A stretch of 64,000 nucleotides of DNA from Gammaproteobacteria bacterium (GTDB lineage: Bacteria; Pseudomonadota; Gammaproteobacteria; GRL18), in the NCBI GenBank assembly GCA_027012135.1, contig JALUZF010000153.1, positions 1 through 64,000 on the forward strand. Direction: 5' to 3'. The position numbers were made by a program, and so were the translations under genes. The notes below the pieces were generated by a model that was given only the letters and a program-made list of their open reading frames with translations, had not been told where the DNA came from and did not search any database. Below are positions 9,964-42,846 of the stretch, piece after piece. Numbering within the stretch: the first letter of the stretch is position 1; the number at the start of each line of letters is the position of its first letter.

Positions 9964-10656
9964 TTATGGATTAGACAGCCCACATTCCATATTTCCTGGA
10001 ACCGCTTTTTCAATCATTTTAGGTTTTGGTAAGTCCATATTTTCCATAATTTTAATATATTCTTCCCGCGTTTTATCATTACCCAGGCGGGGGTTATATT
10101 TTTTCTCTTCCCCAATAGTTGACATGGTTCGACCTTCATAATCATGTCCGGGATAAATTACTGTAGAATCAGGTAAAGTGAATAATTTTCGGGTAATGGA
10201 ATCATAGGCTTGACCGGCATTGCCCGATTGAAAGTCAGTACGGCCACTGCCGCGGATCAGTAGGGTATCACCCGTAAACACTATGCCATTAATTAAATAA
10301 CTGATATCAGTGTTGGTATGCCCCGGAGTGTAAAGAACTTTAATCTTTTCACTTCCCAACATAATAGTATCTTCATCGTCAAGGAGTTGATCAGCACACT
10401 GACTGCCACTGTTTTTATGAACCATAACCCTGGCATTAAAACGTTTTCTTAACTCACCTGCTCCGGTAATATGATCGGCATGGATATGAGTTTCCAGTAA
10501 ATAACGCAGATTAAGATTAAGTTCACGAATTATCTGGGTGTCTCTGTCAACCTGCTCTTTAACTGAATCTATTAGTGCTGCTTCGCCTGTTTTAGCATCC
10601 CATAGCAAGTAGGAATAGGTGCTGCTTTGTGGATCAAAAAACTGTCTGATTTGCAT
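9964..10656 (-). CDS. Persulfide dioxygenase-like metallo-beta-lactamase-fold protein (ETHE1 type)
   Basis: ETHE1-type enzymes oxidise glutathione persulfide to sulfite and glutathione using one non-haem iron. The 230-residue protein shows THIHADHITG (His57, His59, Asp61, His62), TPGHT with His113, TGDTLLIRGSGRTDF with Asp130, and YPGHDYEGRT. The GSGRTDFQ stretch is typical of the persulfide dioxygenase branch rather than glyoxalase II. The gene is convergent with the Fnr-family gene and divergent from zwf. The context of rhodaneses and sulfur transport elsewhere in the window supports a sulfur role. Confidence 0.88.
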   Translation of the reverse strand: MQIRQFFDPQSSTYSYLLWDAKTGEAALIDSVKEQVDRDTQIIRELNLNLRYLLETHIHADHITGAGELRKRFNARVMVHKNSGSQCADQLLDDEDTIMLGSEKIKVLYTPGHTNTDISYLINGIVFTGDTLLIRGSGRTDFQSGNAGQAYDSITRKLFTLPDSTVIYPGHDYEGRTMSTIGEEKKYNPRLGNDKTREEYIKIMENMDLPKPKMIEKAVPGNMECGLSNP

Positions 10657-17746: not shown

Positions 17747-18478
17747 ATGGACTTACTCATTTATTTTTTTCTGACACTTGTTTTTTCTACACTGTTCTCA
17801 ATGGGTGGTGTAGGATCGGCTATTGCACTGGTCAGTATCTTTCCCATGGCTGGTATGCCTTTAAACCTGGCAAAGACGGTCGGCTTATTTATTAACTCAG
17901 TCAGTACCATTAGCGGCAGCATTCTAAACTTTTTACGTCGCGATCTGGATTTGCGTTTTGCACTGCCTCTGGTTATTTCTATTTTAATCAGCACCCCAGT
18001 AGGCGCTTATCTTAGTCAGTTTATCGCTGAATACTGGGTAAAGTGGGTATTAATTATTTTTTTATTACTCAGTGCCAGCCTTCTGTTAATACAGAAAAAA
18101 CAGGCACAGGTTAATTATACCCGAACCTGGATTCTGTATATTATCGGGGCCAGTGTAGGGCTTGTTTCAGGTTTACTGGGAGTCGGTGGTGGCTCTCTGA
18201 TCATTCCGTTATTAATATTTCTGGGCTTTGAACCTAAAAAAGCCGCTTATACGGTAAGCTTCGTTATTCCATTTTCTTCTCTGGGTGGTTTTTTTACCTA
18301 CCTGCACTTTGTTCAAATGAACTGGCTATTATTAGCGGTAGTTACTATTGCGGCATTTCTGGGAGGAATTATTGGCAACCGAATTATGCATTATCGATTA
18401 AGCCAGCAGCAGGTTAAACAACTGCTTGCAGTCATTTTATATTTATTGGCAATAAAACTTACTATAAGTCAGTTCTAA
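17747..18478 (+). CDS. TSUP (TauE/SafE) family membrane transporter
   Basis: This family exports sulfite, sulfoacetate or related anions. The 243-residue protein has about eight helices and two internal repeats, each beginning with a glycine-rich helix (MGGVGSAIALVSIFPMAGMP; GLLGVGGGSLIIPLL). GxGGGSLIIP is the family signature. The next gene begins 11 bases later. With small rhodaneses and an OsmC protein following, sulfite or thiosulfate export is likely. Confidence 0.85.
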   Translation: MDLLIYFFLTLVFSTLFSMGGVGSAIALVSIFPMAGMPLNLAKTVGLFINSVSTISGSILNFLRRDLDLRFALPLVISILISTPVGAYLSQFIAEYWVKWVLIIFLLLSASLLLIQKKQAQVNYTRTWILYIIGASVGLVSGLLGVGGGSLIIPLLIFLGFEPKKAAYTVSFVIPFSSLGGFFTYLHFVQMNWLLLAVVTIAAFLGGIIGNRIMHYRLSQQQVKQLLAVILYLLAIKLTISQF

Positions 18479-18489
18479 GGAGGCTGATT

Positions 18490-18891
18490 ATGTTGCAATA
18501 TAATATTAAAGCAAAAAGGATGGATCAACATGGCAGTCTTGTTCAATGCAAAGAGGCTGAAATTATACTGGATACCGACTTAAATGGTCGCTCTGACGCA
18601 TTTAATCCGGCAGAATTATTACTGGCTGCACTGGCCGCCTGTATTATAAAGAATATAGAGCGAGTAATACCCATCATTAATTTTGAACTTAATAATGTCC
18701 AGGTGAGCATTACCGGTTATCGCCAGGACAAGCCCCCTAAAATGCAGCGCATTGAGTATAAACTTATAATTGACACATTAGAAAATGATAAAAAACTGGC
18801 CTTATTACATCGTAATATTAAACAATTTGGCACTGTATACAATACCCTGGCTCTAGGTTGTGAATTAACGGGAACTATAGAACGTCAATAA
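18490..18891 (+). CDS. OsmC/Ohr-family protein
   Basis: OsmC-like proteins are small thiol peroxidases or related redox proteins. The 133-residue product shows FNPAELLLAALAACIIKN with the first conserved Cys near residue 50 and the second in ALGCELTGTIE near 125, the expected two-Cys layout. AAGGAGG precedes the ATG by 9 bases. It lies between a TSUP transporter and two rhodaneses, so a link to sulfane sulfur stress is likely, but peroxide detoxification cannot be excluded. Confidence 0.85.
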   Translation: MLQYNIKAKRMDQHGSLVQCKEAEIILDTDLNGRSDAFNPAELLLAALAACIIKNIERVIPIINFELNNVQVSITGYRQDKPPKMQRIEYKLIIDTLENDKKLALLHRNIKQFGTVYNTLALGCELTGTIERQ

Positions 18892-18945
18892 CAAATACAC
18901 TTCGGTTCTTTGCAGAAAAACCACATGAAAGATTTAGGAGCGAAA

Positions 18946-19329
18946 ATGAAAACACTGGATTTTGATAATTATTTACGTAATTTTGGTTATGATGAGCGTA
19001 AAGCAATGAAAATACAATTGCCGGAATTACTCAAGCTTTATAAAGAACAAAAAGTACAGCTCATTGATATTCGTTTTAATGAAGAATATGCGGCCTGGAA
19101 AGTAGGTATCGGTGAGCATATCCCTCTAAATGAACTTCCAGACCGACTGGATGAACTGGATCCGGGGAAAACCATAGTGACTATGTGTCCGTATTATGAC
19201 CGCGCTGAAATAGCACGTTTATATTTAACCATTAAAGGTTATCATTCCCGATATTTAACGGATGGTATGTTAGGCATAGCCAGCGAATTACGCGGTGATA
19301 TTGCACGTGATTATATGAAGTCTTTGTGA
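18946..19329 (+). CDS. Small single-domain rhodanese-like protein
   Basis: The 127-residue cytosolic rhodanese domain carries sulfane sulfur on a cysteine. LIDIRFNEEYAAWKVG marks the first strand and loop, and the active loop is MCPYYDRAEIA with Cys81. The loop is CPYYDRA instead of the usual CxxGxR. The frame is open from a TTG at 18910, but the ATG at 18946 is preferred because AGGAG is 5 bases before it. It is clearly related to the next gene, so the pair looks like an old duplication. Confidence 0.85.
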   Translation: MKTLDFDNYLRNFGYDERKAMKIQLPELLKLYKEQKVQLIDIRFNEEYAAWKVGIGEHIPLNELPDRLDELDPGKTIVTMCPYYDRAEIARLYLTIKGYHSRYLTDGMLGIASELRGDIARDYMKSL

Positions 19330-19432
19330 TTTTATATCTGAGTTGTTTGCAATATTATTTAAGTACTGAATCAACTCTGATTTGAAAAAAATCTTATTTT
19401 AGAAAAGTTACTGTAGTTAGAAGGAGATAAAA

Positions 19433-19807
19433 ATGACTGGTTGTAATAATGAATTTGCACAGAGTATTGTGCCACAGGAAATGTCCAGTGCAAGAATTTC
19501 TATTAACGATTTTATTGATGCCTATAATAAAGGTGAAGCTGAACTTGTGGATATCCGAATCCCAATGGAAACAGCAGTATGGCAAGTGAATTTCGGGTTA
19601 AAAATCCCGGCAAATGAATTACCCCAACGCCTGAATGAATTACCTGAAGATAAGCTAATTGTTGTAGCCTGTCCCATGACGGATCGTTCTAATATGGCTC
19701 GAAGCTATCTTGTTTCACACGGATACAACGTCAAATATTTACAGGGCGGGTTGTTAGGTCTTATGGATCACCTGAAAGGTGGTATGGCAAAAACAATTAA
19801 TATTTAA
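19433..19807 (+). CDS. Small single-domain rhodanese-like protein, paralogue
   Basis: The 124-residue rhodanese domain resembles the preceding gene: LVDIRIPMETAVWQVN, then IPANELPQRLNEL and the active loop ACPMTDRSNMAR with Cys80. The GGLLGLMDHLKGG ending matches DGMLGIASELRGD of its neighbour. AAGGAG sits 6 bases before the ATG. A Cys is also present at residue 4. It is a probable intracellular sulfur carrier or sulfurtransferase. Confidence 0.85.
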   Translation: MTGCNNEFAQSIVPQEMSSARISINDFIDAYNKGEAELVDIRIPMETAVWQVNFGLKIPANELPQRLNELPEDKLIVVACPMTDRSNMARSYLVSHGYNVKYLQGGLLGLMDHLKGGMAKTINI

Positions 19808-20079: not shown

Positions 20080-21000
20080 TTAAAGTTCATATTCACCACT
20101 ATATGCTTTCTCACCTTCAATTACAGGCAGTGTCAGTCGATTACCCCAATGTGACCAGCCGCCGTTATAAAGACGAACATCCCTAGCTCCTAAAAATTTA
20201 AGCTGTAGATAGGCAAGGCTCATACGAAAACCATCATGACAATAGACGTATATGGTTTTATCTTTAGATATGGACTTGTATAACTCGGCCAGTTCTTTAT
20301 CTGTACGCCATCTTTGAACACTGGTACCATCCAGACTGACAACATTAACAGCTCCGGGAATATGTCCGCCTCTGATAGAGTGCTTGGTTACTTTTCCGGT
20401 ATACATATCATGTGGACGGGCATCAAGCAGGATAACATCTGGCTTACGTAAAGAAATAACATCAGTATAAACATCAGTCCACTCAACAAATAAATTATTA
20501 TTGGCTGCTTTAAGTGTTACATTGCCCATAGTTCTTGCAGGTGATGGCTCTTTGGTCATCTCCTCAAAGGCACTCCACTCAATTGTACCACTATTTAGTA
20601 TTTTAACCTGCTTCATGTTAAAACCATAAAGTTCTAATAAATAGTAGAGTCTGGAAACTAATGCAGTATTTGAGTCATCATAAAGTACTAATGTTGAATT
20701 ATTATTTACACCCCATTGACGCAGGGTATTCTGAAAAGCTTCCCTGGAAGGAAAGCGCATTAATGGATCAGCAGAATTATCCCCTAGATCTTTAAAGCGC
20801 TGAACCTGTACTGCTCCAGGAATATGTCCTACAGTAAAATAACGATGGGGATGATAGCGAACTTCCAGTACCAGAACATTATCATCTTCTATATGTTCAG
20901 AAAGCCAGTCGCTATTAACAAAATAAGCAGGTTCAGCGAGGCTTATTCCAGGCATAATGATTAATAGACACATAAACCAGTATTTAATATTAGTGTACAT
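20080..21000 (-). CDS. Exported two-domain rhodanese (thiosulfate sulfurtransferase-like)
   Basis: This sulfurtransferase acts outside the cytoplasm: a signal peptide (about residues 1-22, ending SLA) precedes two rhodanese domains. The C-terminal domain has the catalytic loop YCHDGFRMS with Cys254, while the N-terminal domain has LYDDSN in the same position and is inactive, as usual in tandem rhodaneses. The GHIPGA motif occurs in both domains. It is the last gene of the leftward rhodanese-YeeE-rhodanese operon, 64 bases after yeeE. Confidence 0.87.
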   Translation of the reverse strand: MYTNIKYWFMCLLIIMPGISLAEPAYFVNSDWLSEHIEDDNVLVLEVRYHPHRYFTVGHIPGAVQVQRFKDLGDNSADPLMRFPSREAFQNTLRQWGVNNNSTLVLYDDSNTALVSRLYYLLELYGFNMKQVKILNSGTIEWSAFEEMTKEPSPARTMGNVTLKAANNNLFVEWTDVYTDVISLRKPDVILLDARPHDMYTGKVTKHSIRGGHIPGAVNVVSLDGTSVQRWRTDKELAELYKSISKDKTIYVYCHDGFRMSLAYLQLKFLGARDVRLYNGGWSHWGNRLTLPVIEGEKAYSGEYEL

Positions 21001-21064
21001 TTTTTCTCCAGAAAAACTTTCGATTAAGATTAATATACTCTAAACGTTCATTTAATACTTAATC

Positions 21065-22420
21065 TTAATTGCTTGCATAAACCAGTTCATCGGTATTTTG
21101 AGTTAATAATACTTTCCAGTCCCGTTTAAGAAACAGGCGGGCACCAACAAAAGAAAATATAAGAATACCAATTAATAAAAATGAATACACAACCGCCCAG
21201 CCGCTTTCTGTCCAGCCGAACTTATCATTGGCCCATTCGGCAATAGTTATGTAACTGGTTAAACCTTCACCGAATATAACCTCATCAATGATTTCTTTAT
21301 TTAAGGTGTAGGGCAGATAACCAAAATAAAAACCCGGCAGGGCAGCCAGGGCGGTACAGTAGCCTAAACCCAGTCGTGCGTATGTGCGTACTTCACAGCC
21401 AATCATTAATACCGCTCCCATACCTAATAAAGGTCCGCCCAGAATATGCCCCCAGTAAAGACCTTCTTCACCTGATGCATTGGGAACGGTACCTTCACCC
21501 CATAACCAGGAGTAAAGAATAAACAGGTTAAAAACCACAATAGCAACCATAAAACCCTGTAGAGGCAACATACCACGAAACATCCGGTAAGTACTTTCAG
21601 GAATACCGCAGCGGGTATAAAACTCGCGACTGGTTATACAGGCTTCAGGCGCCATAACTGAACACTCCGTACCAAAACCGGTTTTAGCAATTCCTATGCC
21701 CAGTAATATACCTGAAGCAGCCAGCCAGCCGATTTCAGTCAAACCAATGGATTGCTGAGAGCCGGAAATATCACCGGTTAATCCATAATATAATGGCACC
21801 AGCAGGAACACTAACAGGAATCCGGTCAGAATAATATGTACGGGGTTTTTCCAGGCTGAATAGTTGCAGTCATAACCGGGGCAGGGGTTATCATGGCTGC
21901 CTGCATGTTGTTCTGCAATGGCACGGGTTTCCTGGTGACGTAAATAACCTCCCATACCCATTGAAGTTATAATCTTAAATGCCAGGAATGCGAACGGGAT
22001 GCCGGTAAATAACACTACCCAGGATGCAATACTCATGGAGGGAATACCTCCCAGAAAATGATGAGTGGTACATCCTCCCGCCAGACGGGTACCAAAGGAA
22101 AAAATAAAACCACCTGCAAAGGCCAACAGCAGCATACGGCCATCATATTTAACCCAGGCCCGGGATTCTTTTTCTCCGACTGCAACCATGCGGGCACCAA
22201 GTACAGCAAATAGAATAAACCAGTACACCCCGGGTTCATAAACACGCCCAACCCAGTCAATATTAAAAAATTCTTTTTCTATAACGGCAAACATCTGGGC
22301 AAAGCCCGTGGTCACCACAATAAACATATCATAATGATAATAAAAAACGATTTCTGCCAGGCCAACAAAAAGGCCACCTAGCCAGAAGGGCCATTGACGG
22401 GTAATAAGTGAACGAAACAT
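21065..22420 (-). CDS. YeeE/YedE-family sulfur-compound transporter
   Basis: YeeE (TsuA) family members import thiosulfate or related sulfur compounds through conserved cysteines. The 451-residue, multi-helix protein contains two family repeats: RLAGGCTTHHFLGG with a Cys near residue 117 and FGTECSVMAPEAC in the second half. The longer frame to 22456 is rejected in favour of ATG at 22420 because AGAGG lies just upstream. It is flanked by two exported rhodaneses, which suggests that sulfane sulfur is processed in the periplasm and then moved inward. A hairpin lies in the gap before it. Confidence 0.85.
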   Translation of the reverse strand: MFRSLITRQWPFWLGGLFVGLAEIVFYYHYDMFIVVTTGFAQMFAVIEKEFFNIDWVGRVYEPGVYWFILFAVLGARMVAVGEKESRAWVKYDGRMLLLAFAGGFIFSFGTRLAGGCTTHHFLGGIPSMSIASWVVLFTGIPFAFLAFKIITSMGMGGYLRHQETRAIAEQHAGSHDNPCPGYDCNYSAWKNPVHIILTGFLLVFLLVPLYYGLTGDISGSQQSIGLTEIGWLAASGILLGIGIAKTGFGTECSVMAPEACITSREFYTRCGIPESTYRMFRGMLPLQGFMVAIVVFNLFILYSWLWGEGTVPNASGEEGLYWGHILGGPLLGMGAVLMIGCEVRTYARLGLGYCTALAALPGFYFGYLPYTLNKEIIDEVIFGEGLTSYITIAEWANDKFGWTESGWAVVYSFLLIGILIFSFVGARLFLKRDWKVLLTQNTDELVYASN

Positions 22421-22440
22421 GGGATACCTCTTAAAAGAAA

Positions 22441-22466
22441 CTGGCCAGCAGTACACTACTGGCCAG
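22441..22466 (-). promoter_or_regulatory. Intercistronic hairpin, possible partial terminator or processing site
   Basis: CTGGCCAG occurs at 22441-22448 and again at 22459-22466. The octamer is itself a palindrome, so the copies pair as an 8-base GC-rich stem with a 10-base loop. On the leftward transcript TTTCTTTT follows. It sits in the 75-base gap between the first rhodanese and yeeE and could lower expression of the downstream genes or stabilise the upstream message. Confidence 0.5.
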
Positions 22467-22495
22467 ACATTATTTAATATTATTTAGCTTCAAAA

Positions 22496-23485
22496 TTAAA
22501 TGCCTTCAACTTCATTTTTGCGTTTCGTCCATTCATGCATCGATCCGTCAAATAATTTTACATTCTTATTACCCATTAATTCATGCAGAACAAACCAGTG
22601 GCCACTGCTTAAATGTCCGGAATCACAATAAGTAATCGTTGGGGAAGAGGGATCAATTCCCTTGGACTCCATCATTTTTCTTAGCTGATCCTGAGGTAAA
22701 AACTCAGCGGCCTTATCGCCTTTTACCAGAAGTGAATGTTGAAACAATTTAGCCCCAGGAATATGGCCGGCGGCATAGACATACTTTTTCTTATAGGTAC
22801 TGCCCAGGTAATAATCTTCAGCACGACCATCTACAATCTGGGTATCACTGTTTATGGCCGCTTTTACTTCATCGGCAGTTGCCCGAATATCATCTCTAGG
22901 TTCGCCAGCTACCCAGTTTCCTTCACCGGGTCTGGATTTATCACGGCTCATTGGCTTGCCGGCACTGTTCCATGCTGCGGTACCGCCATTAAGAATGGCG
23001 ACATTATCATGTCCCCAGTACTTCATTTGCCAGTAGAAACGGGTGATAAAGGTCATATCTTTGGAAGAGGTTCCTTTACTGGTGATTACAACGGCATCAC
23101 CTTTGTTAATACCCAGATTGCGCATCTGGGCTTCCATTTCAGATTTAGTTGGTACCAGTTTAATTAAATCATAACCATCCACATTACGATTGGCTCTGAC
23201 TTTTTTCCAGTCCATCAGAACAGCACCGGGAATATGGCCTGCTACTTTTATACCGGATCCTTTTTTAGCACCGCAACCCTGCATACCGGCAATTTTATTG
23301 CCTTTACCGGCTTTTTTAGTAAAACTTTTTTTGTCTTTTCGTACATCAACAATGATGACTTCATTTTTGTGCTTATCCAGCCAGTCCACATCAACCATGG
23401 GACCAGGCACCTGCAGAGCAAAACTGTTACTGCTATAGAATAACAACAATAACAGTCCGGCTTTAAGTATGGATGAATATTTCAT
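22496..23485 (-). CDS. Exported two-domain rhodanese with lysine/glycine-rich insertion
   Basis: A signal peptide (residues 1-23, ending SFA) precedes two rhodanese domains. The catalytic loop in the second domain is YCDSGHLSSGHW with Cys287; the first domain has ITSKGTSSKD in the equivalent place and lacks the cysteine. The first domain carries an unusual basic insertion (about residues 52-80, KKSFTKKAGKGNKIAG...) that includes Cys71. AAAGGAG lies 8 bases before the ATG. It is the first gene of the operon and lies 66 bases after a sigma-54 promoter motif. Confidence 0.88.
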   Translation of the reverse strand: MKYSSILKAGLLLLLFYSSNSFALQVPGPMVDVDWLDKHKNEVIIVDVRKDKKSFTKKAGKGNKIAGMQGCGAKKGSGIKVAGHIPGAVLMDWKKVRANRNVDGYDLIKLVPTKSEMEAQMRNLGINKGDAVVITSKGTSSKDMTFITRFYWQMKYWGHDNVAILNGGTAAWNSAGKPMSRDKSRPGEGNWVAGEPRDDIRATADEVKAAINSDTQIVDGRAEDYYLGSTYKKKYVYAAGHIPGAKLFQHSLLVKGDKAAEFLPQDQLRKMMESKGIDPSSPTITYCDSGHLSSGHWFVLHELMGNKNVKLFDGSMHEWTKRKNEVEGI

Positions 23486-23550
23486 TAAAAATCTCCTTTG
23501 GTGTAAAACATATATTTTATTGATCTTCTTTTTGTGTGCAGTTAAAACAG

Positions 23551-23566
23551 AGCAATAGCTATGCCA
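23551..23566 (-). promoter_or_regulatory. Sigma-54 (-24/-12) promoter of the rhodanese-YeeE operon
   Basis: On the minus strand the site reads TGGCATAGCTATTGCT. It matches TGGCA at -24 and TTGCT at -12 with exact sigma-54 spacing (GG and GC ten bases apart). The start point would be near 23540, about 55 bases before the rhodanese ATG. The gene for a sigma-54 dependent response regulator lies just upstream, which makes the match meaningful. Confidence 0.8.
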
Positions 23567-23570
23567 TTAT

Positions 23571-23588
23571 CCTGTCCATAAGGACAGG
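23571..23588. promoter_or_regulatory. Dyad next to the sigma-54 promoter, activator site candidate
   Basis: CCTGTCC and GGACAGG are 7-base perfect arms around ATAA, 5 bases upstream of the -24 element. TGTCC-N4-GGACA resembles sites read by Fis-type helices of NtrC-family activators, but it is closer to the core promoter than the usual -80 to -150 location. Confidence 0.45.
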
Positions 23589-23636
23589 CAGTTAATTGCG
23601 GTCAGTAATGCATTATTTAAAATAAAAAAGACGGGT

Positions 23637-23678
23637 AAAAAAACCTTGCAAAATGCCATGGTCTGGTATTTTGCAAGG
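23637..23678 (-). terminator. Rho-independent terminator of the two-component operon
   Basis: Arms at 23644-23658 and 23664-23678 are 15 bases long with one mismatch and a 5-base loop. Read leftward, the stem is followed at once by seven T (23637-23643). It ends the regulator gene 32 bases after its stop and isolates the downstream rhodanese operon. Confidence 0.85.
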
Positions 23679-23709
23679 GGAAATATATCGATTTATTGTT
23701 TGATAAGGC

Positions 23710-25068
23710 TTATTTTGAGGATTGCTTTAATTTACGGTGAAGGGTTGATGTATCAATACCCAGGCGTCGGGCAGCTTCTGTTTTATTACCACCGGAGCGG
23801 GTTAGTATATGCTGAATCCAGTAATCTTCAACAATCTGCAGGGGAGCATCGGGACTCCAGGGATAGTTTGAATCCTCCGGACTGATTTTTTTATTAAGCT
23901 GTTGTAATTCTATGGGTAGATGGTGTACATCTATAAGAGAGTTTTCAGTCAGTACCACCGCACGATGGATAACATTTTCGAGCTCCCGGATATTTCCCGG
24001 CCAGTGATGAGACTTTAATATCAGCAGAGCTTCATCTGAAATACCCCGTACCAGACGTCCGGTTTTACGGGTATAACAGGCAATAAACTGTTCAACCAGC
24101 ATGGGAATGTCATCAATACGTTCTCTGAGGGCGGGTAATGGAATGGGAAATACATTAAGCCGATAAAAAAGATCCTCTCTGAAACTTCCGGTTGTAACCA
24201 GTTCTTCAAGATTCTGATTGCTGGCCGCAATAAGCCGAACATTGACTTTAATGGTTTTATTACCGCCCACACGTTGTAACTGACCGTGCTGGACAAACTC
24301 CAGCAAGCGGGTCTGAACAGCCATGGATGCACTGTTTATTTCATCCAGAAACAGGGTGCCTCCTTCAGCCAGTTCCAGTAAACCCTGTTTACGCTGACTG
24401 GCACCCGTAAACGCACCTCGCTCATAACCAAACAGTTCACTTTCAGCAACACTTTCTGCAACGGCACCGCAATTTATACTTAACCAGGGTTTCTGCTCAT
24501 TACTGCTGCTGTGTATCCACTGTGCCAGCAGACTTTTACCCGTACCGGTTTCACCGGTCAATAATACCGGTGTTTCAAGATCGGAAACACGGCTGGCAAG
24601 ATTAAGTGCGTTTTTCATTGCTGAACTACGGGAAACCAGCTGAGTCGTATGTCCATCCACCATTTGAAAATGCTGAGTCAAAGCTTCTATACGACGTTGT
24701 CGGGCCAGTGTTTTACTAACTTTTGTCAGTATTCTACGGATTTCATTATTGTCAAAAGGCTTACTGATCAGATCAAGTGCACCGGCGCGGAAAGCCCGAA
24801 TAACAGTAGGCACTGTGGCATAACCGGTGATCATAACTGATGGAAGTTCCGGGAAACGGCCATTAGCATCTTCCAGAAAATCAATACCTTCACCATCCGG
24901 TAGTCGATGATCCGTAAATAAAACATCCGGGACAGATTGGGATAATAGCCGGTTTGCACTGCTGATATCTGCAGCAATAACAGGGTTAAACCCCGTTTTT
25001 TTTGCCAGGTTGGCTAACAGGGCTGCCATTGTCTGATCATCTTCGACAATTAATAATTCCCAGCTCAT
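23710..25068 (-). CDS. Sigma-54-dependent NtrC-family response regulator
   Basis: The protein has a receiver domain (acidic pocket VEDDQ, phospho-Asp in FTDHRLPDGEG, Lys in ISKPF), a central AAA+ domain (Walker A GETGTGKS, sigma-54 contact GAFTGA, Walker B TLFLDEI) and a C-terminal Fis-type helix-turn-helix (NKTEAARRLGIDTSTLHRKL). All activator motifs are intact, so it can open sigma-54 promoters. It overlaps the kinase gene by four bases. Its likely target is the adjacent rhodanese-YeeE operon with the sigma-54 motif at 23551-23566. Confidence 0.93.
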   Translation of the reverse strand: MSWELLIVEDDQTMAALLANLAKKTGFNPVIAADISSANRLLSQSVPDVLFTDHRLPDGEGIDFLEDANGRFPELPSVMITGYATVPTVIRAFRAGALDLISKPFDNNEIRRILTKVSKTLARQRRIEALTQHFQMVDGHTTQLVSRSSAMKNALNLASRVSDLETPVLLTGETGTGKSLLAQWIHSSSNEQKPWLSINCGAVAESVAESELFGYERGAFTGASQRKQGLLELAEGGTLFLDEINSASMAVQTRLLEFVQHGQLQRVGGNKTIKVNVRLIAASNQNLEELVTTGSFREDLFYRLNVFPIPLPALRERIDDIPMLVEQFIACYTRKTGRLVRGISDEALLILKSHHWPGNIRELENVIHRAVVLTENSLIDVHHLPIELQQLNKKISPEDSNYPWSPDAPLQIVEDYWIQHILTRSGGNKTEAARRLGIDTSTLHRKLKQSSK

Positions 25069-26444
25069 AAGATACTCTCCACAGTATGCTGCAAGCTTAT
25101 TTCAAAAGTAGTCCCCTCTGCACCGGTACTGAGCAGGACAATATCTCCACCCATATTTCTGGCCAGAGTCCGACATAAGTTAAGCCCAAGACCGGTTCCT
25201 TTTCCAGCCGCCTTGGTGGTATTAAAGGCCTCAAATAATTTATCGAGTACCGATTCAGGCAAACCTGGGCCGTCATCCGATACCTGTATAGTGATATTCT
25301 GGGGATTTTTTTTTATTGATACCTTAATATGTCGGGCTCCGGCCTGCGCGGCATTGCTGAATAAATTGAAAATAATCTGCTCCAGTGAAGCGGGATCAGC
25401 ATAAACTGTCGTTGTTTCAGCATGTTCAAGTTTAATTTCCTGTACACCTCTGTCCTGTAACACTGGTCTCATTAAGGAAAGCGTCTTTTCAATATGGTCA
25501 TTTAAATCAAAATTATTCAGACGAGTTTCCGGCGGCCTGACGGCTATCAACAGGTTTTTAACCACATCAGAGCAGACTGTCGCCTGTTCTTCAATAGTTG
25601 CCAGGTAAGAGTCCACCTGTTCATTTTCCAGTTCTTCCCGAGCCAATTGAGTATAACCTCGAATATTACCCAGAGGGGTATTAAGCGAGTGAGCCAGCCC
25701 TGCAGCCATCTGGCCGACAGAGGCCAGTTGCTGTTCTCTGCACAGTCTTATGGCTGCAGAGCGGGCCAGCTGTTCAGCCTTGGTACGTTCATTAATATGG
25801 GTCTGTACCTCGTCTCTTAGTTCCTGGAAGGTTAGCCCCAAACGCTGCAGTTCTTCCGGCATGTTTTTCAGATCATTGATACCTGCTGTAGAAAGGGGGC
25901 TGCTAAGGCGAGCCAGGCGTTGAACAGGGCATATTACACTGCGTTCAAGAACATTGCGCTGAAACCAGAAAGCAGCGATAACCATGAGTGTCAGCGTAAT
26001 AAAACCAATAATGCCTATACTATAAAGTTTATTTTGCGCAGGAGATATGTCATAAGCCAGTTCAACATAGCCGATAATTGAATGGCCTAACAGCATGGGT
26101 TCTCTAATTAACTTGAACTGGCTCTGCTTCGAATCAGGGCGCTGCCCCGTTTGAGCAAGTACCTCAGTATCAGTACGGTAAATATTAATAAAAACGATAT
26201 CACTGTCCTGCCCCAGTTGTTTGGTATAACGTTCCAGAGTGGCATAATCGTAAACCAGAACGGCGTCAATACTGAACGTAGCCAGCTGACGGGCCAGTGC
26301 CCTTGCCCGCTCATGCTGTGATTGATAGAGAACTTCGCTGGCTCCTCTGTACACAGCAAATCCGACCATAAATCCGAAAAGCAGTAGTCCAGCAGCTAAA
26401 GTCATACCCAGGCGGTAGGAAAGCGATAAAGGCCGGTTCACCAC
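25065..26444 (-). CDS. Membrane sensor histidine kinase
   Basis: Two membrane helices (about residues 10-30 and 140-160) enclose a periplasmic domain of about 110 residues with no recognised small-molecule fold. A linker and coiled coil lead to the dimerisation box ASVGQMAAGLAHSLNTPLGNI and a HATPase domain (N box FNLFSNAAQA, DDGPGLPE, GTGLGLNL). The residue after the phospho-His is Ser rather than the usual Glu. The start is GTG, inside the end of the PhnD-like gene. Since that gene encodes an exported binding protein, ligand sensing may come from it. Confidence 0.9.
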   Translation of the reverse strand: MVNRPLSLSYRLGMTLAAGLLLFGFMVGFAVYRGASEVLYQSQHERARALARQLATFSIDAVLVYDYATLERYTKQLGQDSDIVFINIYRTDTEVLAQTGQRPDSKQSQFKLIREPMLLGHSIIGYVELAYDISPAQNKLYSIGIIGFITLTLMVIAAFWFQRNVLERSVICPVQRLARLSSPLSTAGINDLKNMPEELQRLGLTFQELRDEVQTHINERTKAEQLARSAAIRLCREQQLASVGQMAAGLAHSLNTPLGNIRGYTQLAREELENEQVDSYLATIEEQATVCSDVVKNLLIAVRPPETRLNNFDLNDHIEKTLSLMRPVLQDRGVQEIKLEHAETTTVYADPASLEQIIFNLFSNAAQAGARHIKVSIKKNPQNITIQVSDDGPGLPESVLDKLFEAFNTTKAAGKGTGLGLNLCRTLARNMGGDIVLLSTGAEGTTFEISLQHTVESIL

Positions 26445-27379
26445 TGCTCCGGAACCTCGGTTCGGGCTTCAATGGCCTGGACAACTTTACGGGCAGACTG
26501 AAACAGGGATAAATCAGGATAAACGAAATAAATGCCCGTTCCAAGAGCGGAGCCTGCTTTGGTAAAATCGGCTGTCGGCTTTAACAGGGCTTCTTTGATC
26601 CGTTCAGCCAGCTGTTTGTCAAAACCGGGTCTGGCCACAATTAAATGCGGGGGCAAAGGAGGGGATGTTTTAATTATTTTTAGCCCGGGTTCCCGGTGAG
26701 CGTATTTTTCTGCAACACTCTGGCGCAGACCTCCAGCATCAAAATCACCGTGCAGAACAGCAAGAGCAACCCGTTCATGACTGCCCAGAAATGCATAATC
26801 AAGAAGATCCGTAAACCCCAGTCCGGCAGCAGCTAACAAGGTACGGGGGGCATAATGACTGCTGAAAGAATGGGGTGCTCCGAAAGCAACACTGTGGCCT
26901 TTTAACTGTCTCAAAAATTGAACCGGACTGCCTGAACTGACCACAATTACACTATGGTAGCCGACCTGACCGTTAATGGCTTCTGCGGCCAGTGGTATTA
27001 GTTTTTGTGTCTGTCCTTTCAGGTAATGATCCTGGGCGCGTAAAAATGGCGTAGGTCCCATATAAGCCAGATCAGCACTGCCGTTACTGATTCGACGGAT
27101 CTGATTGACATAGGAACTGGCCAGTTCCAGTTTAATAGAATGCCCTGTCTGTTTTTCAAGATAACTGCACAAGGGTTGAAAACGGGTAATAAGCTGGCTG
27201 GGAGTATCGTAGGGATGGACCAGAAAAACCAGACGGTTCTCATCGTCAGTGGCTATTTTATTAATCGCTGACTCAGGCTCCGAGTGTTGTTCACAGGCCG
27301 AATTTAATAGTATAAAGACCAGCCATAATAGTTTAAGGATTGTTTTTAACACAGGTTTGGGTAGCAGCAGGGCATTCAT
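26438..27379 (-). CDS. PhnD-like periplasmic binding lipoprotein of a sensor system
   Basis: It is a type-2 periplasmic binding fold of the PhnD/TtrS-sensor kind: VFLVHPYDTPSQLITRFQPLCSYLEKQ at the domain start (shown here only as context), then SADLAYMGPTPF and a GGLRQSVAEKY-like loop. The lipobox LNSAC near residue 27 indicates attachment to a membrane. The frame is open from 27475, but ATG at 27379 is chosen because it gives a proper lipoprotein signal; even so it overlaps the cytochrome gene by 47 bases. No phosphonate transporter genes are nearby, so a sensory role with the overlapping kinase is favoured. Confidence 0.82.
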   Translation of the reverse strand: MNALLLPKPVLKTILKLLWLVFILLNSACEQHSEPESAINKIATDDENRLVFLVHPYDTPSQLITRFQPLCSYLEKQTGHSIKLELASSYVNQIRRISNGSADLAYMGPTPFLRAQDHYLKGQTQKLIPLAAEAINGQVGYHSVIVVSSGSPVQFLRQLKGHSVAFGAPHSFSSHYAPRTLLAAAGLGFTDLLDYAFLGSHERVALAVLHGDFDAGGLRQSVAEKYAHREPGLKIIKTSPPLPPHLIVARPGFDKQLAERIKEALLKPTADFTKAGSALGTGIYFVYPDLSLFQSARKVVQAIEARTEVPEQW

Positions 27380-28475
27380 AAGAGTAGAGTACATAAATCG
27401 ATTGAGCACTGCAATCCCTGGCCAGTTTAAGTTTATTGACTGCATGGCTGTCCAGTTCTTCAGCCAGCTGGTCAATTAGAAACGGATAAACACGCTCATA
27501 ATAATCGGCATCAGGTTCTACAATAACTTCTGCCAGGGCAGAGTTTTCAGGCAACAGGGGCAGGCTTATACGGGCTGTCTGCCCCGGTAATAAGCGCGTA
27601 TCTGAGAGCTCCTGCCAGCCATCTTTTATACTCCAGTGCATGCGGCGCTGAATAATATGCTCAATCTGTTTTTTACCGTCAATGGATTGAATACGCAAGC
27701 GTATTCTGGGTGTAATATAAGTAGGTAATGCATGACCTGCACCAATATTAACAACTTCTAAATGAATTGCTTTTTTAGTCCTGGTAATAGTCACTCCAAG
27801 TCCTTTTCGGGTCATTGCCCTATCATATATCCCTTTAAAGTTATGCGTACCATGCATATGGCAGTTCTGACATTGTATGCCTTCCTGTGCATAACGGCTG
27901 GCTTCCCATTCCTGGTAGGTATTTTCAAGCAGTTTTCCATTAACCAGAATACCGTCATCACCAAACTGATGGCAGGGGGCACAAAACTCCGATTTCTGGA
28001 ACATTGCTAACTGTTTTACCTGACCATGTGGTGTTAGTTCCTGGTTTTTTGGACCATAACGTACATGCTGTCGGACATGGCAGGCCGAGCAATCAATACC
28101 ATTTACATGAGCGTTATTATTATTTTTTAATAACTGCTGCTGTTCTGTACGCGGAGCATGACAATTAAGACAATCTTTTTTTGTATCATCGTCAAAAGCA
28201 GGCAGCTGACCCAATAGTCCCGGGCCGACGGCTCTGGCATGAAGAGAGGTGTGCCATTGCTGGTAGATATGCGGATGACAGGCAGCACATTTTTCCGGCT
28301 GCCGGTCTAATGCAGGGCTATTATATGCTTCCGGTATAGCCCCCTGCAATGGTACTGGCAGTGACCAGAATGAGCTGTCAGAAAAGACAAAAGCTGGATA
28401 GCCTAATAAAAATAAGGTTATATACCCACTTAATGTATTTGCTGGGTTTATTTTTCTGAAATAAAACATTAACAA
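27333..28475 (-). CDS. Periplasmic pentahaem cytochrome c
   Basis: Five CxxCH haem sites are visible at residues 63-67, 102-106, 129-133, 165-169 and 202-206, in a cytochrome c554-like N-terminal half; the C-terminal half (from about 220) is haem-free and beta-rich. A signal peptide precedes them. Such proteins move electrons to or from small oxyanions in the periplasm; the substrate is unknown here. It is the first gene of the cytochrome, PhnD-like, kinase, regulator set, and overlaps the next gene, which suggests tight coupling of redox activity and sensing. Confidence 0.88.
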   Translation of the reverse strand: MLMFYFRKINPANTLSGYITLFLLGYPAFVFSDSSFWSLPVPLQGAIPEAYNSPALDRQPEKCAACHPHIYQQWHTSLHARAVGPGLLGQLPAFDDDTKKDCLNCHAPRTEQQQLLKNNNNAHVNGIDCSACHVRQHVRYGPKNQELTPHGQVKQLAMFQKSEFCAPCHQFGDDGILVNGKLLENTYQEWEASRYAQEGIQCQNCHMHGTHNFKGIYDRAMTRKGLGVTITRTKKAIHLEVVNIGAGHALPTYITPRIRLRIQSIDGKKQIEHIIQRRMHWSIKDGWQELSDTRLLPGQTARISLPLLPENSALAEVIVEPDADYYERVYPFLIDQLAEELDSHAVNKLKLARDCSAQSIYVLYSYECPAATQTCVKNNP

Positions 28476-40385: not shown

Positions 40386-41279
40386 ATGTGGTTTTTAAAA
40401 ACTGAACCTCGACAAACTAAAGTTATATCTTCTTTTATCCTTGCTTTTGTTTTTATATTTGTCTTATTAAACAATTCTTATTCGTCAGAAATAAAAGAAT
40501 TAAATCTTGGTATCCTGTCGCTGACACCGCCATCTAAAATTTATAAAAACTGGAAACCATTTGCCCAGTACCTTTCCAGCAAACTGGATATGAAAGTAAT
40601 TATTATTGCTCCCCGTGGTTTTGGAAAATTAAAGAACATGGCCGAAAATAAACAGGTAGATCTGTTTTATGTGAATTCTCATATTTTTTACCGGCTGAAA
40701 AAATCCGGCAAGGCGGTTCCGATTGCACAGATGTATAATATAGCCGATAGTACTACCAGCCAGAGTAATATATTTGTTCGTAATGACTCCAATATCTCAG
40801 ATGTTTCCCAGTTAAAAGGTAAAACCTTTGCTTTTGTCAGCCCTATGGGAGCCGGTGGTTACCTGGCTCCCCGTGCATTTATGTATGAACATGGTATTAA
40901 AACTAAGCAGCAAACCAATGAAATCTTTACTAAAAATCTGACTAATTCCATATATGACGTGTTATTGGGCAAAGCTGATGCGGCTACCATGTGCGGGGTA
41001 AATTACCAGTTGTTGAGTAAAAAATTAGAGACCGGCGAACTTAAAATCATTGCTTCCAGTAGTAAGTATCCAGAAAATGTACTGGCTGCCCGTTCAGACA
41101 TTTCAACTTCCCTGCTTGATAAGATAAGAGCCATTGTTATTTCTATGCCTGATGATAGTTTTGGAAAAGAAATCCTTGCAACGCTTAATAAAATGAAAAT
41201 TAAAAAATTTATTCCATATGATCCGGAAATTGAAAAATTAACTGAGGAACTGCTACGCTCCGGGGAATTCAGTGGCTAA
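40386..41279 (+). CDS. PhnD-like periplasmic binding protein of an orphan sensor pair
   Basis: A signal peptide (about residues 15-35) precedes a PhnD-type binding domain: LNLGILSLTPPSKIYKNW, then VDLFYVNSHIFYRL, VSPMGAGGYLAPRAFM and ADAATMCGVNYQLL. The 297-residue protein has no lipobox. The next gene, a histidine kinase, starts inside its 3' end, so it is more likely a sensory subunit than part of a phosphonate transporter. The architecture matches the pair at 25065-27379. Confidence 0.82.
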   Translation: MWFLKTEPRQTKVISSFILAFVFIFVLLNNSYSSEIKELNLGILSLTPPSKIYKNWKPFAQYLSSKLDMKVIIIAPRGFGKLKNMAENKQVDLFYVNSHIFYRLKKSGKAVPIAQMYNIADSTTSQSNIFVRNDSNISDVSQLKGKTFAFVSPMGAGGYLAPRAFMYEHGIKTKQQTNEIFTKNLTNSIYDVLLGKADAATMCGVNYQLLSKKLETGELKIIASSSKYPENVLAARSDISTSLLDKIRAIVISMPDDSFGKEILATLNKMKIKKFIPYDPEIEKLTEELLRSGEFSG

Positions 41280-42846
41280 ACTACATCTTACACTTTTTGC
41301 TAAAATAGCAATCAGCTTATTTTTTCTATTTACCCTGGCCATGCTGACATCAGGCTATTTCATTGTCCTGAATCAGAATAATAATATCCTTGAAGAAAAA
41401 GAAAAACTGGCCTTTGCAAGTGCCAAAAGCCTGGCTGAAGGAAGTATTGATGCCCTGGTTTCCCGAGATTTTGAATTTCTTGAAAGCTGGCTAAAAGCGG
41501 TTGTTATTACCGATATTTATGCCTATGGTTATATTTCCGGTGTTTCCGGCCATATTCTGGTTCATACTGACGAGGATCAAATTGCAAAATACACCCAACT
41601 CCCCTCTTTTAGGCATTACACCTCTCGCAATCTTATATATCATGGCAGGCCTGTTAAGGAAATCATTTACGCTTCCAGTATTGATGACGATGTATTCGCC
41701 AATGCCCATATTGCTTATTATACTGATAACATCTTATTTACTGTGTTTAGTAATAATGATATTTATATTCTGTTTCTGGTTACGGTGACTTTTCTTAGTC
41801 TTATCTTACTGGCCACTTTATATATTATCCGCCTGCATACTTCTCCGTTAACTGAACTCAATTCATCTATTCAGAATTTTACCTTTGACAATAATAGTTC
41901 CATTGCCCCTGAAATCCTGGAAAGTCCAGATGAAATTGGAAATTTAGCCAATTCTTTTAAAGAATTAATGGCTCGATTAAATTCAGCCTATCAGGATCTA
42001 AAAAATGAAGAACATTTATTGCAGGGAAAGGTAGAACAAAGAACACTTGATTTACAAAATCAAAATGAAGTTCTTATTAAAATGCAGGATCAACTGGTTG
42101 AGTCGGAAAAAATGGCCTCTCTGGGTAACCTGGTCGCAGGCATAGCCCATGAAATTAATACTCCTATTGGTATCTGTTTAACGGCTGTCAGCCATTTAAA
42201 TGATGCCAGTCATGAACTGCAGTTAAAATATGATCAACAGAAACTATCAGAAAGTGATTTTAAAAACTTCCTCTCTTTATCCCATGACAGTTGTGAAATT
42301 GCAACCGAAAATATTAAGCGGGCTGCTCAACTAATTTCAAACTTTAAAAAAATTGCTGTAGGCCAGCATACAGATACTAAAAACTGTTTTAATTTGTACA
42401 CTGAATTACAGCGATTAGTCAAAATATTACTTCCTAAAAATAATAGTAATACCATTTCTGTCCGACTTGACGGTGATGAATCATTAGCCATTAACTCCTA
42501 TCAAAGTGCTTTTTATCAGCTATTCAGTAATTTAATCAACAATAGCCTGCTTCATGGTTTTGAAAACCAGAAAAAAGGGCTGATTAAAATTGCATTTAAA
42601 ATGGATGATGAACAGTTAAGTCTCAAGTATTCCGATAATGGTCACGGCATCCCACAGAAGATCCTGGAACATCTGTTTGAGCCATTTGTAACTACTAAAC
42701 GTGGTCAGGGCGGTTCCGGTTTAGGCACTCATATTGTTTATAACCTGGTAGTACAGAAACTGGGAGGAACAATAGCCTGTGAGAGCGAGTTAGGTCATGG
42801 CGTACACTTCACAATAACCTTCCCTGTTGAAACCTGCAGGCAATAA
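41272..42846 (+). CDS. Membrane sensor histidine kinase, orphan
   Basis: Two helices (about residues 8-30 and 160-185) flank a periplasmic domain; a HAMP-like linker (residues about 190-240), a coiled coil, the dimerisation box MASLGNLVAGIAHEINTPIG and a HATPase domain (LFSNLINNSLLHG, DNGHGIP, GSGLGTHIV) follow. All catalytic residues look intact. The start is GTG, overlapping the PhnD-like gene by eight bases. No response regulator gene is nearby; the downstream neighbour is a glycosyltransferase after a 340-base gap. Confidence 0.9.
   Translation: MAKLHLTLFAKIAISLFFLFTLAMLTSGYFIVLNQNNNILEEKEKLAFASAKSLAEGSIDALVSRDFEFLESWLKAVVITDIYAYGYISGVSGHILVHTDEDQIAKYTQLPSFRHYTSRNLIYHGRPVKEIIYASSIDDDVFANAHIAYYTDNILFTVFSNNDIYILFLVTVTFLSLILLATLYIIRLHTSPLTELNSSIQNFTFDNNSSIAPEILESPDEIGNLANSFKELMARLNSAYQDLKNEEHLLQGKVEQRTLDLQNQNEVLIKMQDQLVESEKMASLGNLVAGIAHEINTPIGICLTAVSHLNDASHELQLKYDQQKLSESDFKNFLSLSHDSCEIATENIKRAAQLISNFKKIAVGQHTDTKNCFNLYTELQRLVKILLPKNNSNTISVRLDGDESLAINSYQSAFYQLFSNLINNSLLHGFENQKKGLIKIAFKMDDEQLSLKYSDNGHGIPQKILEHLFEPFVTTKRGQGGSGLGTHIVYNLVVQKLGGTIACESELGHGVHFTITFPVETCRQ

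Follow-up and report, generated by a model that had tools for sequence, protein, structure and literature searches.

Gene organization of the locus

The window, namely the whole stretch of 64,000 nt that we analysed, harbors seven genes, all on the minus strand, which were found again where the preliminary description had placed them (Table 1). Four of them overlap leftward, by 46 (cytochrome/PhnD), 7 (PhnD/kinase) and 4 bases (kinase/regulator) from the cytochrome downward, and the coordinates, overlaps and Pfam domains agree with the earlier assignment of this cassette to a cytochrome, a PhnD-like lipoprotein, a kinase and a sigma-54 activator. The claimed adjacent operon of two exported rhodaneses and a YeeE transporter, headed by a sigma-54 promoter, is likewise borne out by its Pfam domains and a perfect -24/-12 site.

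Table 1. Genes and regulatory elements of the locus, with positions in the window
Feature	Position	Strand	Domains, motifs and scores
Exported pentahaem c-type cytochrome	27333..28469	-	C554-like haem domain and C-terminal beta-rich domain; Pfam Cytochrome_C554, 35.8 bits
PhnD/PtxB-fold lipoprotein (sensor X protein)	26438..27379	-	Pfam Phosphonate-bd, 195 bits; lipobox
Membrane histidine kinase	25065..26444	-	Pfam HisKA and HATPase_c; short periplasmic domain between two TM segments, the latter read directly from the sequence
Sigma-54 response regulator (receiver, AAA+, Fis-type HTH)	23710..25068	-	Response_reg, Sigma54_activat (214 bits) and HTH_8; NtrC/AtoC-type
31-bp dyad; the regulator's probable upstream activating site	23646..23676	-	TTGCAAAATACCAGACCATGGCATTTTGCAA
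Sigma-54 -24/-12 promoter of rhd1-yeeE-rhd2	23551..23566	-	TGGCATAGCTATTGCT; perfect consensus match
Rhd1, exported two-domain rhodanese	22496..23485	-	Pfam Rhodanese; loop CDSGHL
YeeE/YedE-family transporter	21065..22420	-	PF04143; two Sulf_transp stretches
Rhd2, exported rhodanese	20080..21000	-	PF00581, 116 bits; loop CHDGFR

The cytochrome bears five CXXCH motifs, all kept in distant orthologues, and its nearest solved chain is cytochrome c552 (5ze8, E 9e-19); the predicted structure, with a pLDDT of 52, is too poor for use. Since the cytochrome is missing from distant relatives and reduced to a 26-residue remnant in genome G010, we regard it as an accessory part. The lipoprotein has the lipobox LNSAC, the Cys of which is invariant among orthologues. 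Moreover, Rhd1 has one invariant Cys (10 homologues), YeeE has three (Cys117, Cys253 and Cys342; 8 homologues), and the loop of Rhd2 is invariant among 10 homologues.

Convergent with rhd2 are genes for a TauE-like permease, OsmC and two small rhodaneses (17747-19807, plus strand), an arrangement conserved in G004; relatives of the OsmC and small rhodanese genes are also found in arsenic islands of G147, G105 and G268. Elsewhere in the window, a gene at 9964-10656 (minus strand) encodes an MBL-fold protein resembling a persulfide dioxygenase, and a second, unrelated PhnD-like protein, with a kinase directly after it, is encoded at 40386-42846 (plus strand). Such a split between PhnD-like protein and sensor is seen repeatedly in the family, including with partners reading as GGDEF. 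Contig C69 of the same genome carries another YeeE-family gene, which shows no relation to this system.

Conservation of the gene order

A scan of named genomes from 84,980 species, using a seven-sequence PhnD alignment as the query, returned nine loci, and the system is therefore rare. Among 369 genomes of the class, PhnD matches of at least 480 bits occur in four (the window's own genome, G268, G321 and G147), all of which carry rhd1, followed by a score of 318 bits and the remainder at 219 bits or less; a wider phylum sample contributed only remote PhnD proteins. YeeE at 95% identity or more is restricted to G000, G001 and G004 among 57 relatives. Rhd1-type rhodaneses are present in 41 of the 369 genomes, mostly without the cassette. 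At the cassette-free loci L070 and L074, and also at L069 and L079, the Rhd1-type gene is preceded by two genes, one of the YeeE type and one that is conserved and ~200 residues long, a pattern that is clear in L070 and L074.

The orthologue set comprises 12 genomes: that of the window, G001, G004, G010, G321, G268, G147 and those behind loci L092 (Candidatus Thiodiazotropha endoloripes), L094 (SI039), L095, L097 and L098. Cassettes do not as a rule stand without the rhodanese-YeeE operon with which the preliminary description had grouped them, as rhd1 is linked to the cassette in 9 of the 12 genomes, which belong to several families. It directly follows the regulator gene in 8 of the 12, counting G268, where one small rhodanese gene intervenes, and is displaced by ~5 kb in G147. 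Most genomes compared are fragmented metagenome assemblies, that of the window having 4.6% contamination, and yeeE comes after rhd1 wherever the contig extends. The exceptions to linkage are G010, where rhd1 is gone and yeeE is a 54-residue remnant, L097, where the cytochrome and kinase are present only as fragments, and L098. The search for this order in other genomes recovered it unchanged at 38-76% identity in other families; by this comparison, its conservation is far beyond chance.

A sigma-54 promoter and a 31-bp dyad upstream of rhd1

The -24/-12 element TGGCATAGCTATTGCT is the sole perfect match in the 64 kb. Defined as GG-N10-GC with at most two mismatches, the element is kept in the orthologous gaps of nine rhd1 loci, the chance of finding it in a shuffled 150-bp stretch being 0.004. 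Alignment of the gaps upstream of rhd1 further revealed a 31-bp dyad, TTGCAnAnTnCCA-N5-TGGnAnTnTGCAA. Each of the nine rhd1 loci has this dyad, 43-103 bp ahead of the -24/-12 element. A genome-wide search of the 12 cassette genomes found the dyad pattern in exactly one place in seven of them, always upstream of rhd1, and the reversed pattern, used as a control, gave zero matches; in the window's genome, the site listed in Table 1 is the only one. Since the dyad of G147 precedes the displaced rhd1, away from the regulator gene, it is tied to rhd1 and not merely to regulator proximity.

Weaker but clear dyad matches were found in G010, L092, L096 and L098, and two relatives beyond the nine rhd1 loci have both dyad and -24/-12 element. 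Despite having lost rhd1 and most of yeeE, G010 retains the dyad and a promoter identical to that of the window, which now precede a porin and a small rhodanese gene. In the distant relative G112, a weaker dyad and a -24/-12 site stand ahead of porin-rhd2. The dyad is thus a probable activator site of the sigma-54 regulator, and the alignments support that one regulatory system controls the adjacent rhodanese-YeeE operon via sigma-54. Judged from these footprints, the system is real, conserved and regulated as a unit.

In the window, a T run comes after the dyad, which could double as a terminator there; a role as a mere terminator was rejected, as the T run is present only in the window and G004. 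A palindrome just upstream of the promoter, CCTGTCC-N4-GGACAGG (23571-23588), was likewise discarded as a regulator site, because it is found only in these two.

The ligand pocket of the PhnD-fold lipoprotein

In sequence as well as in fold, the lipoprotein is nearest to the phosphite-binding PtxB, followed by the arsenate-binding ArrX, PhnD and AioX. Transfer of the published pocket contacts (PMC5700983, PMC5908839) by alignment showed conservation of the oxygen/anion-binding residues Tyr, Tyr, Ser, Ser and His, which correspond to Y90, Y141, S171, S173 and H201 of the window protein. The arsenite-binding Cys106 of AioX is replaced by Gly in every cassette PhnD protein, and the same Cys is present in ArrX and in the Aio/Arx-type X proteins of G391, G268 and G010. 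On these residues, the ligand is likely an XO3 oxyanion, and arsenite binding of the AioX type is unlikely. The phosphite pocket of PtxB also includes Thr131 and the capping Tyr208 (PMC5700983); the former position is Phe/Tyr in the cassette proteins, and the latter is His in all close orthologues except that of L098. A further cluster of G010 (L039, 9811-17595) encodes a PhsA/ArrA-like molybdenum oxidoreductase and its own PhnD-kinase pair with the Aio-type Cys.

Linkage to arsenic genes

In 11 of 22 genomes, the system or Rhd2 has arsenic markers (ACR3, ArsP-type permease or AioA) in its vicinity, compared to 0 of 40 control regions; the Fisher P value of 1.4e-6 is only indicative, because some marker queries were taken from test-set loci (G010, G321 and G001) and the control regions came from other fetched loci, not from a random genome sample. 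ACR3 scores above the curated cut-off in six of the linked loci besides G010. As ACR3 also occurs elsewhere in the genomes of near relatives, whether or not they have the cassette, its presence per se was rejected as evidence and only close linkage was counted.

The run in G268 reads cytochrome-PhnD-HK-RR-rhd3-rhd1-yeeE-porin-rhd2-arsR-arsC-ACR3-MBL-ArsP-type permease. In G001, aioB and aioA follow yeeE on the same strand, with respective scores of 194 and 1242 bits from the models for arsenite oxidase; the joined operon is a putative one, as this contig is separate from the rhd1-end contig. In addition, rhd2 adjoins ACR3 in G147, ACR3 adjoins the loci of G076 and G010, and a related XSR set lies amid ArsC, ACR3 and permease genes in G112. 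Rhd2 homologues without a cassette also stand beside ars genes in G057, G105, G261 and G145, the neighbors in G145 being permease and thioredoxin genes only. Rhd1-type rhodaneses are found inside the aio operons of G005 and G009. These aioB-aioA clusters (L167, 153-8806, and L086, respectively) each include the rhodanese, and that of G005 contains genes for a porin-like protein, a small rhodanese and a Na/Pi cotransporter as well. In the window, G004, Ca. Thiodiazotropha endoloripes and SI039, no ars gene was found close to the cassette, and ACR3 was not detected in G390 and G391; the window's own genome has aioBA, on a different contig. Arsenite at 5 mM strongly induces a rhodanese operon located beside arx/ars in Thioalkalivibrio jannaschii, and thioarsenate oxidation via an as yet unknown pathway has been postulated (PMC6620896).

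Proposed mechanism and alternative explanations

Upon the gene order, regulatory sites, pocket residues and arsenic linkage in relatives, all read from sequence, we place a candidate scheme of ligand, signal flow and enzymatic role. The PhnD-fold lipoprotein would bind a small periplasmic oxyanion and present it to the kinase, which would phosphorylate the sigma-54 activator; the latter would bind the dyad and turn on the -24/-12 promoter, driving the two exported rhodaneses and the YeeE importer, to which relatives add a porin and a third rhodanese. The regulon may handle cell-surface sulfane sulfur in an arsenic context, with the rhodaneses transferring or removing sulfane sulfur linked to arsenic or thiosulfate, YeeE importing sulfur, and the cytochrome serving as an accessory redox part. 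The lead candidates for the ligand, which might be an oxyanion of the XO3 type at the arsenic-sulfur interface, are monothioarsenate and thiosulfate. Altogether, we assign a probability of about 0.5 to a three-component (X-S-R) system that senses such an oxyanion and induces periplasmic sulfur transfer and uptake.

The preliminary description had suggested a ligand such as thiosulfate or tetrathionate. A pure reduced-sulfur sensor is possible but somewhat unlikely. In that case, binding of thiosulfate, tetrathionate or sulfite to the X protein would switch on the handling and uptake of sulfane sulfur, and the arsenic genes would be bystanders that share sulfidic habitats with it. Such a sensor would fit the rhodanese and YeeE targets, the adjoining TauE, OsmC and small rhodanese genes, the sulfur-oxidizing symbiont Ca. 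Thiodiazotropha as one host, the use of PhnD-like domains by ThsS and TtrS (PMC5408782), and a different PhnD-HK-sigma54 set in G049 (L143, 11389-17725) just upstream of genes reading as soxXYZA. However, the repeated arsenic-gene linkage, absent from the control regions, and the position of Rhd2 beside ars genes even without the cassette argue against it. Because relatives sit in arsenic islands and the nearest solved X proteins, PtxB and ArrX, bind phosphite and arsenate, a sulfur-only ligand is not the best reading and an arsenic-sulfur role is more likely, although thiosulfate itself is still a candidate. The G049 set, preceding soxX-, soxY-, soxZ- and soxA-like genes, is a candidate thiosulfate-sensing XSR in its own right.

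The arsenic-sulfur reading also has a dedicated form, in which the lipoprotein would recognize AsO3S (monothioarsenate or another thioarsenate) as a thiosulfate-like anion, the rhodaneses would strip its sulfane sulfur for import by YeeE, and the released arsenic would be exported by ACR3 or oxidized by AioBA; we consider this form unlikely. It is quite improbable that the system is a divergent AioXSR/ArxXSR for arsenite itself, recruited to the rhodanese operon. The X-S-R architecture and sigma-54 logic are shared (PMC5908839), and such an origin would account for aioBA after yeeE in G001 and the adjacent ACR3 in G010 and G076, but all orthologues have Gly in place of the arsenite-binding Cys, which the Aio/Arx-type X proteins of G268, G391 and G010 keep, and a separate Aio-type XSR beside aioBA coexists with the cassette system in G268 and G391; membership in AioXSR was rejected on the missing Cys. 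A selenite/tellurite system related to the Geobacter ext cluster, suggested by matches of the cytochrome and rhodaneses to the ExtKL and ExtH models and by the similar gene content (PMC5877670), is very improbable, as the scores are far under the curated cut-offs (51.9 of 250 bits for ExtKL, 99.5 of 200 bits for ExtH), the ext gene order is missing, and the neighbors are ars rather than selenium genes.

The sensor looks less like a simple thiosulfate sensor than like one that operates where the arsenic and sulfur metabolism of bacteria meet. It bears on how sulfur-oxidizing bacteria recognize and transform thioarsenates, for which it supplies named genes, a defined candidate binding site and a testable regulon; moreover, it would take the XSR family outside the realm of molybdenum arsenic enzymes and connect arsenic-resistance islands with a conserved family of exported rhodaneses.

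Comparison with known systems

TtrS and ThsS, the sensors of tetrathionate and thiosulfate, carry a fused PhnD-like domain (PMC5408782). They share with the present system a PhnD-fold sensing part that works with a histidine kinase and a sulfur-oxyanion theme, but here a lipoprotein encoded by its own gene provides the PhnD part, and the regulator belongs to the sigma-54 activators. The separate genes, together with a score of 131 bits against the TtrS model (cut-off 750), uphold the earlier claim of a PhnD-like part detached from the kinase. The transport binding proteins PtxB and PhnD have the same anion site, whereas the Phe/Tyr and His substitutions set the cassette protein apart from PtxB; the cassette has no neighboring ABC permease or ATPase gene of the phnC/phnE type, and the closest ABC genes, from 28605 on, read as MlaE/MlaF-type. 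YeeE shares PF04143 and the three invariant Cys with the YeeE/TsuA thiosulfate importers and SoxT, but its 37 of 400 bits lies far under the TsuA cut-off, and it is coupled to exported rhodaneses instead of YeeD/TusA. The Geobacter ext cluster is similar in its pentahaem cytochrome, rhodanese and porin content (PMC5877670), but shares no gene order and lacks an XSR.

The closest likeness is to AioX, ArxX and ArrX, signaling X proteins with S and R partners (PMC5908839). AioXSR and ArxXSR (arsenite) and ArrXSR (arsenate) also encode together a separate exported PhnD-fold X protein, a membrane kinase and a regulator, which in AioXSR and ArxXSR is a sigma-54 activator as here; their X proteins have the core Tyr, Tyr, Ser, Ser and His in common with the cassette protein. 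A near-identical -24/-12 element, tggcaaggctattgct, lies upstream of arsenite oxidase genes (PMC5908839). By contrast, the cassette X protein is a lipoprotein without an equivalent of AioX Cys106, a pentahaem cytochrome is added, and the target is a rhodanese-YeeE operon instead of a molybdenum oxidase; no molybdenum arsenic oxidoreductase gene adjoins the cassette in the window, and aioBA follows yeeE only in G001. The novelty first supposed for the layout thus falls for the part made of separate PhnD, kinase and sigma-54 activator, which is known from AioXSR and ArxXSR (PMC5908839), and holds for the full cytochrome-PhnD-HK-RR-rhodanese-YeeE set, of which we found no description in the literature searched, mostly non-subscription papers. 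With the separate-PhnD layout of the XSR type already known, the rhodanese-YeeE system is best read as a new XSR-type variant.
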